A DNA stretch of 64,000 bases from Lactiplantibacillus xiangfangensis (lineage in GTDB: Bacteria > Bacillota > Bacilli > Lactobacillales > Lactobacillaceae): positions 1 through 64,000 of the forward strand of contig NZ_JQCL01000057.1 in the NCBI RefSeq assembly GCF_001438845.1, in the 5' to 3' direction. The notes beneath the pieces are model-generated. The model was given only the letters and a program-made list of their open reading frames with translations. It searched no databases and had not been told where the DNA came from. Made by a program: the position numbers and the translations under genes. Below, piece after piece: positions 1-8,043 of the stretch; position 1 is the stretch's first letter; each line of letters opens with the position of its first letter.

Positions 1-327
1 TTCATGGCCTTTTTGGTCCAATTATTTAAGTGGTGCACTTGAATTGTAAATCAGGCGATAAAAAACAATTAATTTTACTACAAAATTATCTTGATTCGAC
101 GATGTCGTTTTTAATTTCTAATAGCGATAATTATTAATGCTTGTTATTATATTTATACGGAAGTGCAAACTGAAATATGATTCAGAATATTGCACGTTCA
201 TGTGATCTTTGGTTACTGAGTGTTTAAAGTATTTCGTTGCACCCGTAATAGACAAAATAGTATTAATTAATATTTTGCTAGGATTGTTATTAATAATAAT
301 TGAATCTTTGTTGAACTGCTGTTAATG
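1..327. other. AT-rich stretch without a confident gene
   Basis: No open frame here has both a ribosome binding site and recognisable protein features. One frame at 209-325 is open, ends just before a terminator and would encode a very hydrophobic peptide of about 38 residues containing VAP followed by a run of I and L. It has only a TTG start and no visible Shine-Dalgarno sequence, so it is not called as a gene. Confidence 0.5.
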
Positions 328-364
328 AGGAAACCAATTCATTTGTGAATTGGTTTCCTTTTTG
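328..364 (+). terminator. Rho-independent terminator
   Basis: A perfect 14-bp stem (328-341 with 346-359), a TTTG loop and a following run of T. It ends a transcript coming from upstream, whose gene is not visible in the window. Confidence 0.8.
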
Positions 365-492
365 GAATTGTGGATTCAACCCAATCTCGTGTACAAAATG
401 GAATAGATTCTTGATGAACCTATACTTTCTTGGATTAGTGTTGGTAACGTTTGTGGTGATTGGTAAAAAGTACTTTATTTTGGAGGTGTAGC

Positions 493-1161
493 ATGGAGAA
501 TTTAGTACAGCTATTAGCAAATGAGCCGGATCAGAGTGGATTTTATGCATCGTTAACGCCGAGCAATCAAGCTAGATATCAACAATGGTTTGATAGAGCG
601 AAAAATTCTGAAGACCGACAAGTTCGTCTTCGACATATTCAACATGAGTTAATTAATGGTCATCGACGACTAACAATCGGTAGCTATATGGGGGATGTCC
701 GGGCGCCTAATCCGAAAATGGATGATGTTACTTTGCGTGCCAAGTTAATTGAGACCAGTGAACGATTATCGCATCGTCAAATGGCAGTCTATGCCATTGC
801 GCTGTGTCAATATGTGGCGACAAAATTGAACTTTTTGGATGATCCGCTACTTCATGAGACAATTGCAATTAATAAACGGTGGCTAGCCGGTGAAATCACC
901 TTCAAAGAAGCACGTGCGTATGCCGGAGTCCCCATGCAGCATAGCCGTGACGCTTCGGATAAAACTCATCGATTATTCTATCGAATGTTACATCAGGCTG
1001 CAGTTACCCCACACGTGAAACGGCACGCATTAATTGCCTCGGATTTTGCTTTAGAAACATTACTGACGAAATCGTCACAGTCACAAGTAGCGACTAAAGA
1101 GCGTACTTGGCAGTGTGCACAATTATTGAAGTATCCGTTGGCTAGGTTGAAGAATAGTTAA
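493..1161 (+). CDS. Imm5-like putative immunity protein
   Basis: 222-residue soluble protein with no signal peptide or membrane segment. The start is the ATG at 493 because GGAGG lies 6 bases upstream; a longer frame from 460 has no such site. The central and C-terminal parts resemble the Imm5 fold ("putative immunity protein", sometimes mis-annotated exonuclease SbcC): an alanine-rich helix AIALCQYVAT, then RWLAGEITFKEARAYAG, then a helix with His residues (TPHVKRHALIASDFALETL) and a final ERTWQCAQLL. Known Imm5 proteins neutralise polymorphic toxins. No toxin gene is next to it, so it would be an orphan immunity gene. The next gene is convergent and ends behind its own terminator. The family call is moderate; the biological role is inference. 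Confidence 0.55.
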   Translation: MENLVQLLANEPDQSGFYASLTPSNQARYQQWFDRAKNSEDRQVRLRHIQHELINGHRRLTIGSYMGDVRAPNPKMDDVTLRAKLIETSERLSHRQMAVYAIALCQYVATKLNFLDDPLLHETIAINKRWLAGEITFKEARAYAGVPMQHSRDASDKTHRLFYRMLHQAAVTPHVKRHALIASDFALETLLTKSSQSQVATKERTWQCAQLLKYPLARLKNS

Positions 1162-1280
1162 ATGCGCAATTACTTTTAAAATTACAACGACGTGTGCAAG
1201 TCGTATTAGCTTGTTATCGTGGCTCGGATTTGTCGGTTTATAAATACAACGATTTTTAAAGCAAAATTCAATTTCCAAAT

Positions 1281-1296
1281 AGTTTCACGTGAAACA
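1281..1296. other. parS-like site (1 mismatch)
   Basis: AGTTTCACGTGAAACA differs from the ParB/Spo0J site TGTTTCACGTGAAACA only at the first base. It is intergenic and one of five such sites in the window. Confidence 0.6.
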
Positions 1297-1317
1297 TTCT
1301 TAGCGCACAGAAACCAG

Positions 1318-1369
1318 TTAAAAAGGCAGCCCCTAAATTCTCGATTGCGAGAATTTAGGGGCTGCCTTT
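1318..1369 (-). terminator. Terminator of the FusB-like gene
   Basis: Perfect 22-bp stem (1322-1343 with 1348-1369) around a 4-base loop, followed on the minus strand by five T. The unusually long stem probably also stops plus-strand transcription from the Imm5-like gene. Confidence 0.85.
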
Positions 1370-1382
1370 GGCTGATTAGCCG

Positions 1383-2042
1383 TTATTTTTTATGATTTCG
1401 TTGTGGTTGGACTACTGTTAGAAAATCCTCTAACGGTTGAAGATCCGTCAATTGCCGGTTGCATTGTGCGCTATCCCGGCAAACATAATTTCCCTTTTTC
1501 GTATAAGTTCCTAGTCCGGACGATTTAGTCGTTGATAGGAATAGGGCGACGTTGCCAATGGTTTGGCAAATCGCGCACACGCCCTTGACCGTTTGTGGTG
1601 ATAATTCACCTTGAATTCCAATCACGCGGCCCTCGTAAGGTGCGACTAGGTACTTCTTTTGGTTACCACCATCATTCCACCCCAGATAAGTCATCTCGTG
1701 TAACCGCATCTCTGACCAATTGGGCTGTTTCAGTTTCTTCACCTTCCGGAAAAGCTTTTCCAGCTGCTTCGGCGTTAACTGTGGAAATGGGACCACCAAT
1801 GGAATCAGTGGGTCCAGTAGTTTAGCCGCTTTGGCTCGGGTCAAACGTTCCGTCTGAAGTCCCTGAAGAAAAGTTGTGACTACCGGTTCGTCGGTTGGCA
1901 ATAGTGGTGTAATGCGATCGAGGATCTTAGCTAAGACCGCTGCACGAATTTGCGCGTCGTTAACGGATAGTTCCGCGCTAACGAGGTCGTCGATTTGTTG
2001 GGTAATATAACTGTATTGATAGGTGGTAATAGTCGGTTTCAT
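1383..2042 (-). CDS. FusB/FusC-family EF-G-binding protein
   Basis: 219-residue cytoplasmic protein. The family binds elongation factor G and helps release it from the ribosome; staphylococcal FusB and FusC give fusidic acid resistance that way. The N-terminal half (about 1-130) is helical. The C-terminal half (about 130-210) has the treble-clef zinc-binding pattern: CAIC near residues 157-160 and a distal CRDSAQC, with GNVALFLS and the G-L-G-T-Y pattern between. The length fits the family (about 210-220). The start at 2042 is preceded by AAAGGAAC; a longer frame from 2075 is rejected because it runs through a regulatory hairpin. A leader-peptide attenuator lies upstream (2053-2184) and a long terminator downstream. 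Family call is firm; whether it gives resistance in this host cannot be read from sequence. Confidence 0.85.
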   Translation of the reverse strand: MKPTITTYQYSYITQQIDDLVSAELSVNDAQIRAAVLAKILDRITPLLPTDEPVVTTFLQGLQTERLTRAKAAKLLDPLIPLVVPFPQLTPKQLEKLFRKVKKLKQPNWSEMRLHEMTYLGWNDGGNQKKYLVAPYEGRVIGIQGELSPQTVKGVCAICQTIGNVALFLSTTKSSGLGTYTKKGNYVCRDSAQCNRQLTDLQPLEDFLTVVQPQRNHKK

Positions 2043-2052
2043 AAATAAAGTT

Positions 2053-2184
2053 CCTTTCAGATTCAAACCAGACACTTCTCTGAAAGGTGTTCTAGAAAAG
2101 TGTCGCTAACAAGCAGCACTTTTCCGTACTAATAACGATGCCATCATCGTCGATCATCTCCTTATTTCGGCACTAGGCCGAATG
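2053..2184 (-). promoter_or_regulatory. Candidate translational attenuator of the FusB-like gene
   Basis: In transcript order (descending coordinates) the 5' leader holds overlapping inverted repeats. Hairpin 1 pairs 2117-2124 with 2095-2102 (8 bp). Hairpin 2 pairs 2098-2104 with 2071-2077 (7 bp, plus 3 more after a mismatch). Hairpin 3 pairs 2079-2087 with 2053-2061 (9 bp) and buries the AAAGGA of the downstream gene. Hairpins 1 and 2 compete for the same bases, and hairpin 2 is topologically incompatible with hairpin 3. This is the ermC/cat/fusB arrangement, where a ribosome stalled on a leader peptide frees the second ribosome binding site. Pairings are seen in sequence; the mechanism is inferred. 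Confidence 0.7.
2106..2147 (-). CDS. Leader peptide MMASLLVRKSAAC
   Basis: A 13-codon frame starting at ATG 2147 with TAAGGAG at 2158-2164, about 10 bases upstream, and ending at TAG 2106. Codons 8-12 (R-K-S-A-A) cover the 5' arm of hairpin 1, so a ribosome paused mid-peptide would prevent hairpin 1 from forming. An alternative frame starting right against the Shine-Dalgarno sequence is less likely. Too short for normal gene callers. Confidence 0.6.
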   Translation of the reverse strand: MMASLLVRKSAAC

Positions 2185-2190
2185 GTTAGT

Positions 2191-2219
2191 AGTATACAAG
2201 AAATTAAATTAAATGGCAA
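2191..2219 (-). promoter_or_regulatory. Sigma-A promoter of the FusB-like gene
   Basis: On the minus strand TTGCCA (2219-2214), a 17-base spacer and TATACT (2196-2191). The transcript would start near 2184, just ahead of the leader-peptide ribosome binding site. Confidence 0.75.
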
Positions 2220-2382
2220 CGGACGGAAAAAAGAGTGGTAAATTTTTCATATGGGACCTGATTTTAGGCTTCTTAGTTTCGACTAAAATAACCCTATTGA
2301 GTATTTTGGAATGGCTGTCATACTTATAAGTAAAAGTAAGTTTACCAAAATAAAGCGTAATAAGTTTTTGGGGGGATTTGGG

Positions 2383-2988
2383 ATGGCAAATAAACCAGTA
2401 TTTGGACCCACGGCGTTGAGACCGGGAGAGCTGAGTGAGTTGCCTACACAAAAACAGGAATCTGATAGTTTGTCGGAAAGAAGTGGGTTACGAACACAGA
2501 CCCCAGCCGATAATCTGGCACAAGTATTACCAACTCATCCAGTGTCTAAAACAGAACCTAACAAAAAGGAATCTAATGAAACTCCGTCGCCAGGTCAAAC
2601 CAAGGTAGCCGCAAAGCCGAAGCGTCATTTTCTACAAAAAATTTATCAACTACAGTCACCGTGGGCGTGGGGACTGTATTACATTATTGCAATCATTGGT
2701 TTTTTTATGAGTAAAGACGCCGGAGTCGGGGTCTCAGTGATGGCATCAGTGTTATTCCCGTTTGCCATTCTAATTGTTGAAAAGTTGATGGGACGCTTCC
2801 ATCACACACCGTACCAATTACTCAAATTTTTATGGCAATCTGTACGAAAGGGGCATAGGTTAATGGCCCTACTACTGCTTCCGTACGGCCTAATCATGTT
2901 ATTTTATTTTATGGCGATATACACCGTCAGCTGGGGCCTGGGGATTATTGGGATAATTTATGCGATAATTCGCGGGCTTAGAAATTAG
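2383..2988 (+). CDS. Membrane protein with disordered N-terminus, partner of the AAA+ protein
   Basis: 201-residue protein. The first 85 residues or so are rich in T, P, S, Q, E and K and look disordered. Then follow hydrophobic segments: WAWGLYYIIAIIGFFM, a second one around SVMASVLFPFAILIVE, and a C-terminal pair around LMALLLLPYGLIMLFYF and IGIIYAIIRG. The start at 2383 follows a G-rich stretch (GGGGGGATTTGGG); a longer frame from 2311 has no ribosome binding site. The AAA+ gene begins 15 bases downstream, so the two are probably cotranscribed and may act together at the membrane. I do not recognise the family. Confidence 0.7.
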   Translation: MANKPVFGPTALRPGELSELPTQKQESDSLSERSGLRTQTPADNLAQVLPTHPVSKTEPNKKESNETPSPGQTKVAAKPKRHFLQKIYQLQSPWAWGLYYIIAIIGFFMSKDAGVGVSVMASVLFPFAILIVEKLMGRFHHTPYQLLKFLWQSVRKGHRLMALLLLPYGLIMLFYFMAIYTVSWGLGIIGIIYAIIRGLRN

Positions 2989-3003
2989 GAGGGGGAAATT
3001 TCA

Positions 3004-5505
3004 ATGCAACCATTTATTACTGTAGGACCTGAAGCTGGAAGCTTAGAACAAGCCCTCCGTGAAAGTAAAAGCGGAACGATGTTGATTTTAAATCCGGGGA
3101 AATATCGAGTTTCAAACAGGATAATCAGCAAGCAGTTACTATTACGTGGGACTGGCCAAAATGCAACGGACGTCGTCATTGAAGGAACCTTTCAAGCTAA
3201 AGGAAAGCTACAACTTGAAAATTTAATGATTCAGCAGATAACTACGCATAACAACTTAGTGAGTCTTTCAGAGGGGGCTAAGTTAACAGCCAAAGGTGTC
3301 GTCTTTCATAATTTGGGTGGCCCCGCAGCTAGTATTTATTTAAATCACGCCTCCCTGACACTAATTGCTTGTACGGTACGACAAACGGATGGTGAGCGGC
3401 GTGGAATTGTTGCCGATAAACATAGTGAAATTTTGCTAGATCGTAGCGAAGTTCAATTTGTTCAGGTATCTGAAACAACAATTACGGCGAAATCTTCCTT
3501 ATTGCGACTGGCGTTACTTATCCGTGATAACAGTGTGCTTAATGCCGATACGCTGTACTTAGCCGACTATAATTCGAAGTACTATGCGATGAACGGAGAA
3601 AACCATGCTGAAATAAAAATCGCTGATTTAGAGCTACCTGCTGGAGAAACTCGAACTGTTTTTGGTGAGAGTACGGTCCAGATTGATAAAACTAATATTG
3701 ATCCGACCCATCGTTTAATCGCTCATACGGATGAGGGTGCCACGGTAGGCATTCCGGGTGCGCAAATCAGACCAATTAACGGCTCGGTGAATGAAACGCC
3801 AACTACTAAACCAGCAACTGTTGTTAGTGCGACGGTAAACGTAGAACCACAACGTAAGTCGGCGGAGTTGCAAGCTGATGCGCCCAAACGAGCTATTGAT
3901 CAACTAAATGAAATGATTGGCTTAGCTAGCGTTAAGCAACAGGTTAACCAGTTTATTGAATTGGCTAAGTTCAATAAACGTCGAGAAGCGCTAGGAATCA
4001 GTCAAGTTTCACAATCATTGCATGCGACTTTTTGTGGTAACCCTGGGACTGGGAAAACTACGGTGGCGCGATTAGTTGCGAAAGCGATGTATGAAGAGGG
4101 CGTCATGCCCAACGATACTTATGTCGAGGTCACCCGCCAAGATTTAGTTTCCCAGTATGTCGGTGGTACGGCAGTGAAGACGCAGAAGGTTTTGGAAAAG
4201 GCCTTGGGTGGCGTCTTATTCGTGGATGAAGCCTACTCGCTATACCAGGCCGACGGTTCCTCCAACTGGGGCCAAGAAGCCGTCGATACGATTCTGAAGT
4301 TTATGGAAGACCACCGTAATGATTTGATGATTATTTTTGCGGGCTACCCTAAAGAAATGGCAGACTTTATTAGTATGAACCCGGGTTTAGAATCTCGGAT
4401 TGCGAATCACTTTGAGTTTGCAGACTATACACCGGAAGAGGTTGCGGAAATTGGGGTACGGGCATTAACCCAGCAAGAATTTAAATTTGATGAAGCGAAT
4501 TACCGGCAAGCCGTAATTAAAGCTTATCAAGCCGATATTTCACATAGTAATGGACGATGGATACGCAACTTTAATGACAAATTGATCAGAATTATGGCTG
4601 AACATGCAATGAATACAAGTAATCGGGATACTGTGACAATTTTAAATAGTGATATTGCAGAATTAGTCGATGGTGGTCAAACAGACAAAGCGCAAGCCGT
4701 TAAAATGTTACTGGCACAGCTTGATGACATGGTGGGATTGGAGTCAGTCAAAAAGTTTGTTCATGACTTAGTCAGTCAAGTTGTTGTTAGCCAGCGGTTT
4801 GGGGACCAACTTGGTGAGGTTGAGCCGACTTATCACATGACGTTTACGGGTGATCCTGGGACTGGTAAGACGACGGTGGCGCGACTCATTGCACAATTGT
4901 TTTTTAATTTAGATATTCTTCCCAAGAATACGGTCAGTGAGGTTTCACGAATGGATCTCGTCGGCGCTTACGTGGGGCAAACTGAAGAAAAGACAAGTAA
5001 GGTGATTCGAAACGCACTCGGTGGCGTCTTATTTATCGATGAAGCCTATCAGCTGACGAGTGGTCAGGAGAGCAATGACTTTGGTCAACAGGCCGTTGAA
5101 ACGATGATTACCGCGTTAGAAAATCAGCGGAATGAATTTGTGGCGATTTTTGCGGGTTATACCAAGGAAATGCAGCAATTTTTAAGCGCAAATCCAGGAT
5201 TGCGGTCACGGATACCACTGAATATTGAGTTTGAGCCTTATTCAGCGACAGAAGTCGGCCAAATTGTTGATCAGATTGTTAGTAAAAACTTTCAAGTTAA
5301 CCACGATTTATTGATACAAGTTGTGACACAACATTATCAATCCTTACCGAGTGATGAACGTTCAAATGGTCGGTGGGCCCGTAATTTTGCTGATCAACTC
5401 ATCGCGCATCACAAGTTGTGGTTGAGTGACCGGTTGGATCAGGTGAAAAATGTTAAGCAAATTGATGACGATGTTGTGAGTGCTAGTCTCGATTGGAAAA
5501 TTTAA
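3004..5505 (+). CDS. Tandem CbxX/EccA-type AAA+ ATPase with beta-helix N-terminus
   Basis: 833 residues in three parts. About 1-250 looks like a right-handed parallel beta-helix (pectate-lyase-like): short beta repeats with I, V and L at regular spacing, beginning SLEQALRESKSG...GKYRVSN. About 255-295 is a T/P/E-rich linker. Two CbxX/CfxQ-type AAA+ modules follow. Module 1 has Walker A GNPGTGKT at 345-352 and Walker B VLFVDE at 404-409; module 2 has GDPGTGKT at 616-623 and VLFIDE at 675-680. Both keep the SRI/SRIP arginine region, so both look active. Relatives include CbbX, SpoVK and the EccA ATPases of type VII secretion. The ribosome binding site is GGAGGGGG about 8 bases before ATG. It follows the membrane-protein gene and is closed by a strong terminator. 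Substrate unknown. Confidence 0.8.
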   Translation: MQPFITVGPEAGSLEQALRESKSGTMLILNPGKYRVSNRIISKQLLLRGTGQNATDVVIEGTFQAKGKLQLENLMIQQITTHNNLVSLSEGAKLTAKGVVFHNLGGPAASIYLNHASLTLIACTVRQTDGERRGIVADKHSEILLDRSEVQFVQVSETTITAKSSLLRLALLIRDNSVLNADTLYLADYNSKYYAMNGENHAEIKIADLELPAGETRTVFGESTVQIDKTNIDPTHRLIAHTDEGATVGIPGAQIRPINGSVNETPTTKPATVVSATVNVEPQRKSAELQADAPKRAIDQLNEMIGLASVKQQVNQFIELAKFNKRREALGISQVSQSLHATFCGNPGTGKTTVARLVAKAMYEEGVMPNDTYVEVTRQDLVSQYVGGTAVKTQKVLEKALGGVLFVDEAYSLYQADGSSNWGQEAVDTILKFMEDHRNDLMIIFAGYPKEMADFISMNPGLESRIANHFEFADYTPEEVAEIGVRALTQQEFKFDEANYRQAVIKAYQADISHSNGRWIRNFNDKLIRIMAEHAMNTSNRDTVTILNSDIAELVDGGQTDKAQAVKMLLAQLDDMVGLESVKKFVHDLVSQVVVSQRFGDQLGEVEPTYHMTFTGDPGTGKTTVARLIAQLFFNLDILPKNTVSEVSRMDLVGAYVGQTEEKTSKVIRNALGGVLFIDEAYQLTSGQESNDFGQQAVETMITALENQRNEFVAIFAGYTKEMQQFLSANPGLRSRIPLNIEFEPYSATEVGQIVDQIVSKNFQVNHDLLIQVVTQHYQSLPSDERSNGRWARNFADQLIAHHKLWLSDRLDQVKNVKQIDDDVVSASLDWKI

Positions 5506-5508
5506 ATT

Positions 5509-5562
5509 AAAACGTACCGTCTGCATACGCGTGATATTGTATGCAGACGGTACGTTTTTATA
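5509..5562. terminator. Bidirectional terminator
   Basis: A 20-bp stem (5509-5528 with 5539-5558) with T on one side and A on the other. It can end the AAA+ transcript on the plus strand and the surface protein transcript on the minus strand. Confidence 0.85.
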
Positions 5563-5605
5563 ATTATTGTAGGTTTAGTAGTAGGGATTGCTTAATGGGT
5601 GTAGG

Positions 5606-6895
5606 TTAGTTTTGACGGTGTTTTTGTGATTTAAAGGCGCCGAACGTGAATGTTCCTAGCAGTAAGCTCAAGAGGGCGATACCCCAGGCTGAGACTGCAC
5701 TGGTCTGACGTTCACCAGTTTGTGGAAGTGAGTGCCCGTGTGCAAGTGATTCATGTTTGATGAGGCTAGGTGCTTGTGTATGATGGCTAGTAGCTGGTAG
5801 GGCGACTGCAGTATTACCAGTGGTCCGTGAAGAATTGAATGGCACGTAGGAAGCTTCGGTTAGTCCTGGAACGTAAAACCCGTTGCTTTCAGGATTGTAC
5901 ATTGGCGAAGAAGTTTCGGTTGTCCCGGGGGTTACTTTTGGAGCCACCAAGTCGTATTCTTTTTGTGCTTGGTCTAGGTCTTGTTGGTCGGCATTTACGG
6001 ATGCTCTTAGATTGCCTAAAGTTGTGTCGGAAACGTGGATACTAGAATATTCGGACTGAGCGGTATCAAGTTCGGCAGTGCGTTGCTTGTAAATTTGATC
6101 AGCCGCGTTGAATGCGACTGTAGCCACAGTGAGTTTTTGTTTTGCATCGGCTAAGGCTGCTTTAGCAGTTTCTAACGTTTTATTGGCTTGATTCAACGCA
6201 GTCCCGGTAGCTGCTGACTGATCTTTAGCCGCATTGAGTTCTTTTAGTGCTTGTCCTACAACGTCGTCAGTTGACGGAGTACTTAATTGAGTGGTCGTTT
6301 CGGTTACGGCTTTAGTTGATTTTTTAACCGTATCTTTAATCACTTGGGTGTTAGTTTGAGTTTCATTTTTAACTGGTGCTGCTGGTTGAGCTTGGGTAGC
6401 AGCCGTTAGTTGATTATAATGATCTGTCTTAGCTTTAACATTTGCTTTGGCGGTAGCATCGTTAGCCTGTGCAGTTTTTACCGCTGCTTGAGCGTGATCA
6501 GTTTTGAGTTGTTGGGTCTTAACGGCATCAGCTGCGTTGTCAACGGCCTTCTTAGCTGCGGTTCTATCATCGGCAGCCTTAACATAGTTTTGGTTAGCGG
6601 TGTCAAGCTTAGCTTTAGCTTTCTGGAGTTGTTCAGGCGTTGTCTTGTCCTTAATCGCTTGTGCCTTGTTAAGGTGGGCTAGAGAATTAGCATATGCCTT
6701 TTTAGCATCTGCTAATTTTTGGGTAGCAGCTGCCACGTCTGGTTTTGCCGTTGGCGTGGTTGTTTGGACGCGTGCGCTTTCTGCCTGTGGCTGAGTAACA
6801 GCCGCGGCATCAGCGTTGGTGTTGGTACTTACTACGGCACCTAAAGTTGCAAGGCTAACTAGGGTCGCTGCGGTTAATGATTGGGACTTGTTCAT
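5606..6895 (-). CDS. LPQTG-anchored, alanine-rich coiled-coil surface protein
   Basis: 429 residues. Signal peptide at about 1-30 (MNKSQSLTAATLVSLATLG... ending NADA). The body (about 40-330) is rich in A, K, Q, D and T with heptad-like spacing, typical of an extended coiled coil; a T/S/P-rich wall-spanning region follows. The C-terminus has the sorting signal LPQTGE, a hydrophobic segment and a basic tail KSQKHRQN, so sortase should link it to peptidoglycan. AGGAG sits about 9 bases before the ATG. It has its own transcript with a long upstream region. The adhesive partner cannot be told from the sequence. Confidence 0.88.
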   Translation of the reverse strand: MNKSQSLTAATLVSLATLGAVVSTNTNADAAAVTQPQAESARVQTTTPTAKPDVAAATQKLADAKKAYANSLAHLNKAQAIKDKTTPEQLQKAKAKLDTANQNYVKAADDRTAAKKAVDNAADAVKTQQLKTDHAQAAVKTAQANDATAKANVKAKTDHYNQLTAATQAQPAAPVKNETQTNTQVIKDTVKKSTKAVTETTTQLSTPSTDDVVGQALKELNAAKDQSAATGTALNQANKTLETAKAALADAKQKLTVATVAFNAADQIYKQRTAELDTAQSEYSSIHVSDTTLGNLRASVNADQQDLDQAQKEYDLVAPKVTPGTTETSSPMYNPESNGFYVPGLTEASYVPFNSSRTTGNTAVALPATSHHTQAPSLIKHESLAHGHSLPQTGERQTSAVSAWGIALLSLLLGTFTFGAFKSQKHRQN

Positions 6896-7310
6896 AATTG
6901 AAGGACTCCTTTAAAGGTATTTTTAAAGCCGATTTGAGCCACAAACCTGGCTTAGAACGGAAAGTTTGTTCAGTGAAGTATCATGGCTCTGTATATAGTT
7001 TACGGCAACAAGGATTTAAATCGGTGAAAAACCGCCTGCTATTTTTCATGAAAACAGGTGAATCCTTTAAAAGAAAATTCGATTATAAGGTGGATTAATT
7101 GCTGTTAATAAGGACATTGATTTGAAAGTAAAAATTGAAAATCCAATTAGGACAATGGAAAAATAGTGCTCAAGATGGAAGGGTAGAGGATTAATTTTAG
7201 ATTTGTGATTCTGAGCGGATACAAAAATGATTATGATGATTTTTTCTAATCAAATTACCATATTTGTGGTAAAAAGTAACACTGGGGAGAAGTTGGTAAA
7301 TTTAGGATCA
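6896..7310. other. Long upstream region of the surface protein gene
   Basis: About 415 bases without a supported gene. A 66-codon plus-strand frame at 6898-7098 has no ribosome binding site and an untypical composition. Short inverted segments (for example TCCTTTAAA copies near 6905 and 7064) suggest a structured minus-strand leader, but I cannot assign a mechanism. Confidence 0.4.
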
Positions 7311-7352
7311 CAAAAAAATGATCCGCCATAGGATGACGAATCATTTTTATCT
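7311..7352 (-). terminator. Terminator of the small secreted protein gene
   Basis: On the minus strand a 10-bp stem beginning ATGAT and closing ATCAT, followed by seven T. Confidence 0.7.
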
Positions 7353-7364
7353 AGATAAATATAG

Positions 7365-7760
7365 TTATCGTGGAACGTATTTAGTCCAACTAGCACCAGG
7401 GTAGTTACCCTTATATTTAATGATTTTGTGACCTTTGATTTTCTTAAAACTAATGGTCGTCTTGGCGTGTAAATACGTGTATTCATAGCCGCGTACTTTA
7501 TATGAATGAGCGCCCGTTTTTTTGTATTTAATATTTTTTAGATGGAACGGTCCGGATGAATATAGGTAAACTCGTTTCTTAGTAACCTTTAAACGGTCAA
7601 CCCGAGTGGAGACGTGTTTAATACGCCACTTTCCCCGCAGAACTTTCGGTGTTCCCTTATGCCAAGTTGCCGCTTGAGCAGTAGTACTATTCAGACTGCT
7701 AACGGTCACAAAACTTATCATGGCAATAATAACTATTAGTGCTGTTTTAAACTTTTTCAT
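7365..7760 (-). CDS. Small secreted basic protein
   Basis: 131 residues. An N-terminal signal peptide (KKFKTALIVIIAMISFVTVSS) with probable cleavage after TAQA leaves a mature protein of about 100 residues rich in K, Y, H and T, with no cysteine or anchoring motif. The ATG at 7760 is preferred over a TTG two codons upstream because AAAGGGGA lies 8 bases before it. It resembles the many short exported lactobacillus proteins of unknown function. An inverted repeat covers its promoter and ribosome binding site (7767-7810). Confidence 0.7.
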   Translation of the reverse strand: MKKFKTALIVIIAMISFVTVSSLNSTTAQAATWHKGTPKVLRGKWRIKHVSTRVDRLKVTKKRVYLYSSGPFHLKNIKYKKTGAHSYKVRGYEYTYLHAKTTISFKKIKGHKIIKYKGNYPGASWTKYVPR

Positions 7761-7766
7761 CAACAA

Positions 7767-7810
7767 TATCCCCTTTTATAATACTTAGTATATTCAAATG
7801 GAAGGGGATA
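7767..7810 (-). promoter_or_regulatory. Inverted repeat around promoter and RBS of the secreted protein
   Basis: TATCCCCTT (7767-7775) and AAGGGGATA (7802-7810) are perfect complements 26 bases apart. One arm contains the Shine-Dalgarno sequence of the gene starting at 7760; the AT-rich loop contains promoter-like TATACT and TATTAT hexamers. It could be a repressor operator or an RNA hairpin that hides the ribosome binding site. Confidence 0.45.
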
Positions 7811-8043
7811 CACAAGCCTGTCGAAAGAACCAGTAGAAATCGATTGGCACAAATTTTATAGTTTAATCTATCAATAAATAAAATTATTATTTAGATAGAA
7901 TTTACGTTGAGCTCATGGTGAAATATTTATTTTAAAAAATCCTATTTATGCAGAAAATTTTCCAATCACCGTCTAACTAGTGTAAGCTTTACGAAGATAG
8001 CTACTACGGATAATAATCGGAACAGATGAGAGGCGTTTAAGCA

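Follow-up and report, generated by a model that had tools for sequence, protein, structure and literature searches.

The window analysed here, a stretch of 64,000 nucleotides from Lactiplantibacillus xiangfangensis (contig NZ_JQCL01000057.1, positions 1 to 64,000), carries on its minus strand a gene of the FusB/FBP family behind a short open reading frame and several inverted repeats, which raises the question of whether this chromosomal gene is controlled by stalled ribosomes and, if so, what such a device would sense. Three papers report that fusB of the plasmid pUB101 is subject to translational attenuation and induced by fusidic acid, a result credited there to O'Neill and Chopra 2006 (PMC3352095, PMC12008383, PMC12493156). 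A 2025 review gives the regulation of FusB homologues as unknown, and no description of a leader upstream of a FusB homologue outside staphylococci was found in the open-licence literature searched. The window leader is a probable new case of this known kind of attenuator.

The encoded protein matched PF07299 (79.2 bits, cut-off 27.1) and PF16571 (38.9 bits, cut-off 27.2), and both FusB/FBP domains of Pfam, the N-terminal EF-G-binding domain and the FBP_C zinc finger, were present. PF07299 had a single match in the host genome. The protein shared 35 % identity with FusB of pUB101, in an alignment that brought together the basic loop and four cysteines at the C-terminal end, and also matched the solved chains of FusB and FusC (Far1; 'putative fusidic acid resistance protein'); FusB is described as having a C4 treble clef zinc finger (PMC3352095). 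The NCBIfam exception models for FusB, FusC, FusD and FusF scored 128.3 to 152.9 bits, far under their curated cut-offs of 375 to 450 bits, so that on sequence grounds the protein is a FusB homologue distinct from the resistance alleles FusB, FusC, FusD and FusF.

The FusB-like gene looks monocistronic, forming a single-gene transcription unit (2219-1324, minus strand). Counts of promoter matches in the region did not by themselves exceed those of shuffles, with 2 observed where 2.3 were expected; TA[TC]A[CT]T lay upstream of the leader in all 24 Lactobacillaceae leaders compared, at a shorter distance in one of them (L023). Judging from the promoter-like site, the 5' end of the mRNA would lie near position 2185, and the 5' leader ahead of the gene measures about 145 nt. 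Among the neighbouring genes, positions 460-1161 (plus strand) encode a protein with an OmdA/YdeI-type domain fused to an Imm-5-like immunity domain. An 833-residue protein encoded at 3004-5505 (plus strand) has two AAA ATPase domains of the SpoVK/CbbX/EccA type, preceded by a long N-terminal region that matches no family, and the protein encoded beside it (2380-2988) has no Pfam or NCBIfam match; a link of this pair to type VII secretion is possible.

The preliminary description of the locus had named a promoter, a leader Shine-Dalgarno (SD) sequence, a 13-codon leader, three helices and a masked AAAGGA, in the order of the ermC, cat and fusB class of translational attenuators. All of these were present on the minus strand (Table 1), and the anatomy supported that class. 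Hairpins 1 and 2 compete as proposed, both of them using arm B. Hairpins 2 and 3 are mutually exclusive as well, because arm C sits in the loop and on the inner edge of hairpin 2. As hairpin 2 thus excludes both others, A:B goes together with C:E, leaving the SD masked, while B:D forms without C:E. The masking itself was confirmed, the C:E helix covering the AAAGG of AAAGGA. The 160-nt leader RNA folded to -46.7 kcal/mol (z -3.8), with none of 200 shuffles equally stable, and an Rfam search over positions 1-8000 with E up to 1 gave no match. Leader-controlled transcription attenuation reportedly exists for other resistance genes; here no terminator-like site was found between the leader and the FusB-like gene, and it is the SD itself that is masked, both of which make transcription attenuation, or protein-mediated autoregulation, a highly improbable substitute for control at translation.

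Table 1. Features of the FusB-like gene and its leader (window coordinates; arms are given in the direction of the transcript)
Feature	Position	Strand	Details
Promoter-like site TTGCCA-N17-TATACT	2191..2219	-	-35 at 2219-2214, -10 at 2196-2191; 10/12 matches
5'-terminal hairpin TTCGGC/GCCGAA	2166..2182	-	2182-2177/2171-2166, just 5' of the leader SD; not in the preliminary description
Leader SD AAGGAG	2158..2163	-	Read from sequence
Hairpin 0 GACGATG/CATCGTT	2134..2151	-	2151-2145/2140-2134; stem contains the leader ATG (2147-2145); not in the preliminary description
Leader ORF MMASLLVRKSAAC + TAG	2106..2147	-	13 codons, ATG 2147, TAG 2108-2106; conserved in Lactobacillaceae
Hairpin 1 (A:B)	2094..2125	-	2125-2117/2102-2094, 9 bp + 4 inner bp (2115-2112/2107-2104)
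Hairpin 2 (B:D), ON	2071..2104	-	2104-2094/2081-2071, 11 bp + 3
Hairpin 3 (C:E), OFF	2053..2087	-	2087-2079/2061-2053, 9 bp; masks the gene SD
Arm A	2125-2117		Inside the leader ORF
Arm B	2104-2094		Just after the leader stop
Arm C	2087-2079		Overlaps arm D by three bases
Arm D	2081-2071		
Arm E	2061-2053		Holds the gene SD
SD of the FusB-like gene, AAAGGA	2052..2057	-	Read from sequence; AAAGG part within hairpin 3
FusB/FBP-family EF-G-binding protein gene	1383..2042	-	219 aa; domain and homology matches
Intrinsic terminator	1324..1367	-	20-pair stem, T tail; 3' of the FusB-like gene; not in the preliminary description

In the mechanism proposed for this layout, a ribosome would load on the leader SD and make the 13-residue peptide. 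During fast translation it would reach the leader stop and cover B as the transcript grows through C, D and E; C would then pair with E and shut the SD of the FusB-like gene, and once the ribosome had gone A:B could hold B. A ribosome stalled at about codons 4-11, for instance by fusidic acid freezing EF-G on it, would cover A and leave B free, so that B:D would form around C, hairpin 3 would not form and the EF-G-binding protein would be made, which could clear the frozen EF-G. What the analysis shows is the anatomy, the exclusion of one helix by another in folding models, and a logic that recurs and co-varies across the gene family; we infer the co-transcriptional timing of these steps, stalled ribosomes as the signal, the role of fusidic acid as natural or only inducer, and the protection of EF-G in the host species. 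That the window leader is a translational attenuator is given a probability of about 0.8.

The preliminary description had suggested folding the RNA with the leader region blocked. The ribosome was modelled by removing the RNA up to 16 nt beyond the P site and folding the remainder, and ribosomes at codons 4-11 forced hairpin 2 and excluded the SD-masking hairpin 3 (B:D probability 1.00 on codons 4-10 and 0.89 on codon 11). With the ribosome on codons 12-14, C:E reached 0.75-0.97, and codons 2-3 gave about equal odds of B:D and C:E. Ribosome edges from 12 to 20 nt moved the opening window by one or two codons only. Stalled elongation is a likely signal for such a device.

The predicted ribosome-free fold of the window leader slightly favoured the open state (B:D 0.96; constrained folds of -48.0 kcal/mol for ON and -45.7 kcal/mol for OFF), which counts against a simple switch, as does a weak local helix that keeps roughly half of the SD core paired in the ON fold (0.48-0.49). 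Among ribosome-free Lactobacillaceae leaders, C:E exceeded 0.5 in 16 of 24 and B:D was preferred in the other 8. Across the 83 leaders of the wider family described below, SD pairing was more than 0.2 above its mid-leader value at the stop position in 44, at codon 1 in 36 and without a ribosome in 32. As ribosome-free masking exceeded the mid-leader value in only these 32, many leaders call for the assumption of a kinetic OFF state, in which A:B forming first during transcription, and ribosomes ending at the stop codon, would keep the switch shut.

Homologues without the leader or without its complementarity, which the preliminary description had named as evidence against attenuation, did not occur among close relatives. 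A protein-similarity search provided 46 loci first and more from a wider Lactobacillales search, and all 39 Lactobacillaceae loci examined with a protein identity of at least 60 % (32 distinct upstream sequences) kept both leader and arms. Arms B, C, D and E were near-invariant in 29 aligned Lactobacillaceae sequences (proteins 60-87 % identical to that of the window), the sole two-sided arm change being 2094:2081 from TA to CG in four sequences, with all three helices retained. The conservation foreseen for the leader was thus found, but hardly any of the compensatory changes foreseen for hairpins 1-3, the arms being too invariant within Lactobacillaceae. The 5' hairpin was rewritten with its pairing retained (-9.30 kcal/mol for own and -6.30 kcal/mol for swapped partners, 0/5000 permutations, 24 Lactobacillaceae leaders); one leader (L023) had no clear 5' hairpin (-1.5).

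A leader model (R1), built on sequence only since the helices are mutually exclusive, was run on 201 Lactobacillaceae genomes with the stricter filters of Infernal. It returned 12 strong matches (E <=1.1e-31), every one of which precedes a FusB homologue, and two weak matches (E 0.003 and 0.008) without a FusB homologue in the locus examined. Within this 201-genome sample, the leader element belongs to the FusB-homologue gene.

A FusB homologue was encoded in 113 of 395 Lactobacillales genomes and in 159 of 398 Bacilli genomes. The loci examined covered 89 of 114 homologue places in Lactobacillales (30 + 59 loci; one place retrieved twice) and 30 + 20 loci from the 159 Bacilli genomes with a match. 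Upstream stretches were usable in 137 of 138 cases, of which 135 were kept (two duplicates out) and gave 103 non-redundant loci; L045, L180 and L181 had no usable gene start. An SD-led leader ORF of 9-22 codons, ending 35-95 nt upstream of the gene, was present in 84 of the 103. Those of L006, L010 and L041 were picked by hand among alternative ORFs, and L120, whose 'leader' lay within an unrelated upstream stretch, was removed, leaving 83 leaders.

The order described for the window extended well beyond close relatives, very different leaders with other arms preceding most same-branch homologues sampled. Leader peptides fell into the groups MMASLxVRKSAxC, MxNVSYLKExG, MIRFVSSxx, MxxSSLxxx and MIxxxxHVSxSK, with MQTKLHCSxLSNN in Listeria-like genomes (f8) and MLxxNATLLIQS in Staphylococcus-like genomes (f17), both family names being guesses. 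By reading of the sequences, B arms appear to start at or near the leader stop, or inside the last leader codons (pUB101, Listeria-like), and the E arm appears to cover the gene SD across leader groups. A differing arm layout was seen in eight Listeria-like f8 leaders (L110, L108, L111, L113, L117, L118, L122, L123); in f8 leaders, again by reading, a GGAUUG of the leader can pair with a CAAUCC that otherwise can pair with the gene SD, and in several of them SD pairing dipped at codons 6-9 in the folding model.

The ribosome-position logic was scored over these loci by comparing SD pairing with the ribosome at the leader stop and within the leader. At a fixed mid-leader position, mean stop-minus-mid SD pairing was 0.18 (-0.04 in shuffles) and the contrast was reached by at most 3 of 60 shuffles in 40 of 84 loci, while SD pairing at the stop position alone was unusual at that threshold in only 18 of 84. 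The fixed position came too late for longer leaders (pUB101, Listeria-like) and was replaced by a codon scan, which takes the best codon per leader and does likewise in its shuffles. In the scan, the stop contrast was matched by at most 1 of 30 shuffles in 52 of 90 leaders, about 6 being expected, and a two-sided bell (masked, open, masked) was likewise found in 52 of 90, again with about 6 expected; the bell count comprised 18 of 24 Lactobacillaceae leaders, a set of closely similar sequences, and 34 of 66 others. For the window leader, one shuffle in 30 matched the stop contrast and none in 30 matched the bell. The published attenuator of pUB101 did not stand out beyond shuffles (21/30) and L151 went in the wrong direction (29/30), so that either a missing signal at one locus means little or the reading of the arms is incomplete.

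These results bear on the idea that the leader ORF is incidental and the helices do no more than stabilise the mRNA or maintain a start site that is constitutively weak. The ON-like ribosome-free fold predicted for the window would suit it, and a stabiliser-type 5' hairpin is present, but it is very improbable given the bell-shaped SD exposure beyond shuffles and the recurrence of SD-led ORFs of similar length with unlike sequences and, by reading, a B arm at or near the leader end.

Co-variation of the arms pointed to the same attenuator logic. RNAalifold on subgroup alignments yielded few compensatory changes and, because MAFFT misaligns arms that change rapidly, no consensus for some helices (B:D and C:E of the VSS group); it was replaced by a partner-swap test, in which the pairing of each arm with its own partner was compared with that with partners from other loci over 5000 permutations. 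Across 84 loci, hairpin 0, A:B, B:D and C:E each gave 0/5000, a result to which relatedness adds, since related groups are mixed in it. Within the VSS group (14 leaders), A:B and B:D gave 0/5000, C:E 53/5000 and hairpin 0 375/5000. A:B gave 1/5000 within the SSL group and 0/5000 within the Listeria-like/f9 group, and many other within-group tests were null, mostly where arms hardly vary.

The start region can pair with codons 4-8 in most leader groups, pUB101 included, through GAUAC/GUAUC, GAUGA/UCAUC, GAUGC/GCAUC, CGAUG/CAUCG, AAGAU/AUCUU and AUGUUA/UAACAU. Mean energy of this start hairpin was -6.9 kcal/mol over 83 leaders and -3.0 kcal/mol over 32 ordinary gene starts of the window. It was matched by at most 10 of 200 shuffles in 39 of 83 leaders and in none of the 32 ordinary starts, and pairing of the AUG exceeded 0.5 in 73 of 83 leaders as against 14 of 32 ordinary starts. 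The ten leaders below 0.5 AUG pairing include all four of the HVSxSK group. As a guess, hairpin 0 may serve to meter leader initiation.

A serine or threonine recurs mid-leader in otherwise unlike leaders (VSYL, VSS, SSL, ASLL, HCS), and drug-dependent arrests depend on particular residues, so that the leader peptide could arrest the ribosome with a macrolide-, phenicol- or oxazolidinone-type drug, as in ermC and cat, fusidic acid not being the real inducer. In 77 of 83 leaders, however, the 3' arm of hairpin 0 contained a Ser/Thr codon, and these residues made up 115 of 303 in the 3' arm and 124 of 875 elsewhere. The recurring serine is thus probably a by-product of the RNA helix over the start codon, and peptide arrest through a conserved serine motif was set aside. 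Outside the start hairpin the peptides differ between groups, and the product is by family an EF-G binder, all of which leaves arrest by the nascent peptide improbable. With the serine explained by an RNA helix, the switch would read the position of the ribosome and probably does not sense the leader peptide itself.

The distribution of leaders over the family was examined on a tree of 130 of 146 rows (quick method, LG+G4, Lactobacillaceae thinned to 8 rows), in which long branches meet in places and the root is a midpoint, with a bearing on the order of gain and loss. At a split with 99 % SH-aLRT, none of the 42 rows on one side had a counted leader; these are named Bacillaceae, other Bacilli and some Listeria-like genomes, whose FBP/FusB homologues belong to the same family as the window protein. 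L152 and L182 (ORF found by rule, judged spurious) and L120 were labelled 'no leader' by hand. On the other side, 75 of 88 rows had a leader, FusB of pUB101 among them, and 13 had no counted leader. The leader label changed 9 times on the tree, against a mean of 42.0 when shuffled.

One leaderless row of the leader branch (L102; G363, f3) lacks the whole unit of SD, ORF, B, C and D (about 112 bp) in comparison with L097 and retains the last 33 bp upstream of the gene with the gene SD; in comparison with L098 and L103, different sequence occupies the place of these roughly 112 bp. Leader and arms appear to have been lost together here, as expected for parts of one device. The homologues of Secundilactobacillus odoratitofui (L042) and L101 (f3) grouped with each other and apart from other Lactobacillaceae (99 % support) and their leaders are alike, which together suggest transfer between families.

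Comparison with known systems bears on what may be sensed. The pUB101 fusB leader resembles that of the window in protein family, SD-led leader ORF, tree branch and a predicted start-codon hairpin (-7.9 kcal/mol); by reading, it also has an arm close to the end of the leader that is able to pair with sequence otherwise masking the gene SD. It differs in being plasmid-borne, with 20 codons, an unlike peptide and a B arm in the last leader codons; by reading, one strand seems to act there as both D and C, which are nearly separate in the window. Attenuators of ermC and cat rely on drug- and peptide-specific arrest. With the ermC translational attenuator (PMC9332259) and with that of cat, the window leader shares a leader peptide, competing hairpins and a second SD that is masked and that a stalled ribosome would open; in the window family, unlike these, the peptides diverge from group to group beyond the start hairpin, and the protein encoded downstream would act on EF-G.

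Sensing of ribosome position would fit fusidic acid, since a drug that locks EF-G on the ribosome should be able to act at any codon, and fusidic acid is predicted, with somewhat better than even confidence, to be an inducer in the cell. The same opening window, which spans about 8 codons and looks peptide-independent, would also suit a general sensor of slow translation (starvation, other antibiotics), with the protein as a stress factor for stuck EF-G and fusidic acid resistance as a side effect. Such a sensor is possible though rather doubtful: chromosomal homologues may be housekeeping proteins that confer resistance by chance, as put forward in one paper (PMC12008383), but fusB of pUB101, a resistance gene carried on a plasmid, falls within the leader branch. 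Sequence by itself does not separate a general sensor from a switch for fusidic acid only.

Beyond the window, we tentatively suggest that these leaders may represent an old, peptide-independent ribosome-position switch, made of a start-codon hairpin that meters initiation and three competing arms, whose design was kept while nearly every base was replaced, and which would occur in most of the Lactobacillales/Staphylococcus-like branch and be absent from the Bacillus-type branch. One design across most of a branch is a more interesting claim than its member in the window, and its basis is computational throughout. If true, control by stalled ribosomes would extend to most members of one branch, those of lactobacilli, enterococci and their relatives, and the leaders would provide a naturally occurring set of attenuators that differ in sequence and share a single logic. 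Presence of a leader would then distinguish inducible protectors from housekeeping proteins among the chromosomal homologues, which would argue for a protective role and offer a simple sequence test to separate the two kinds of homologue.
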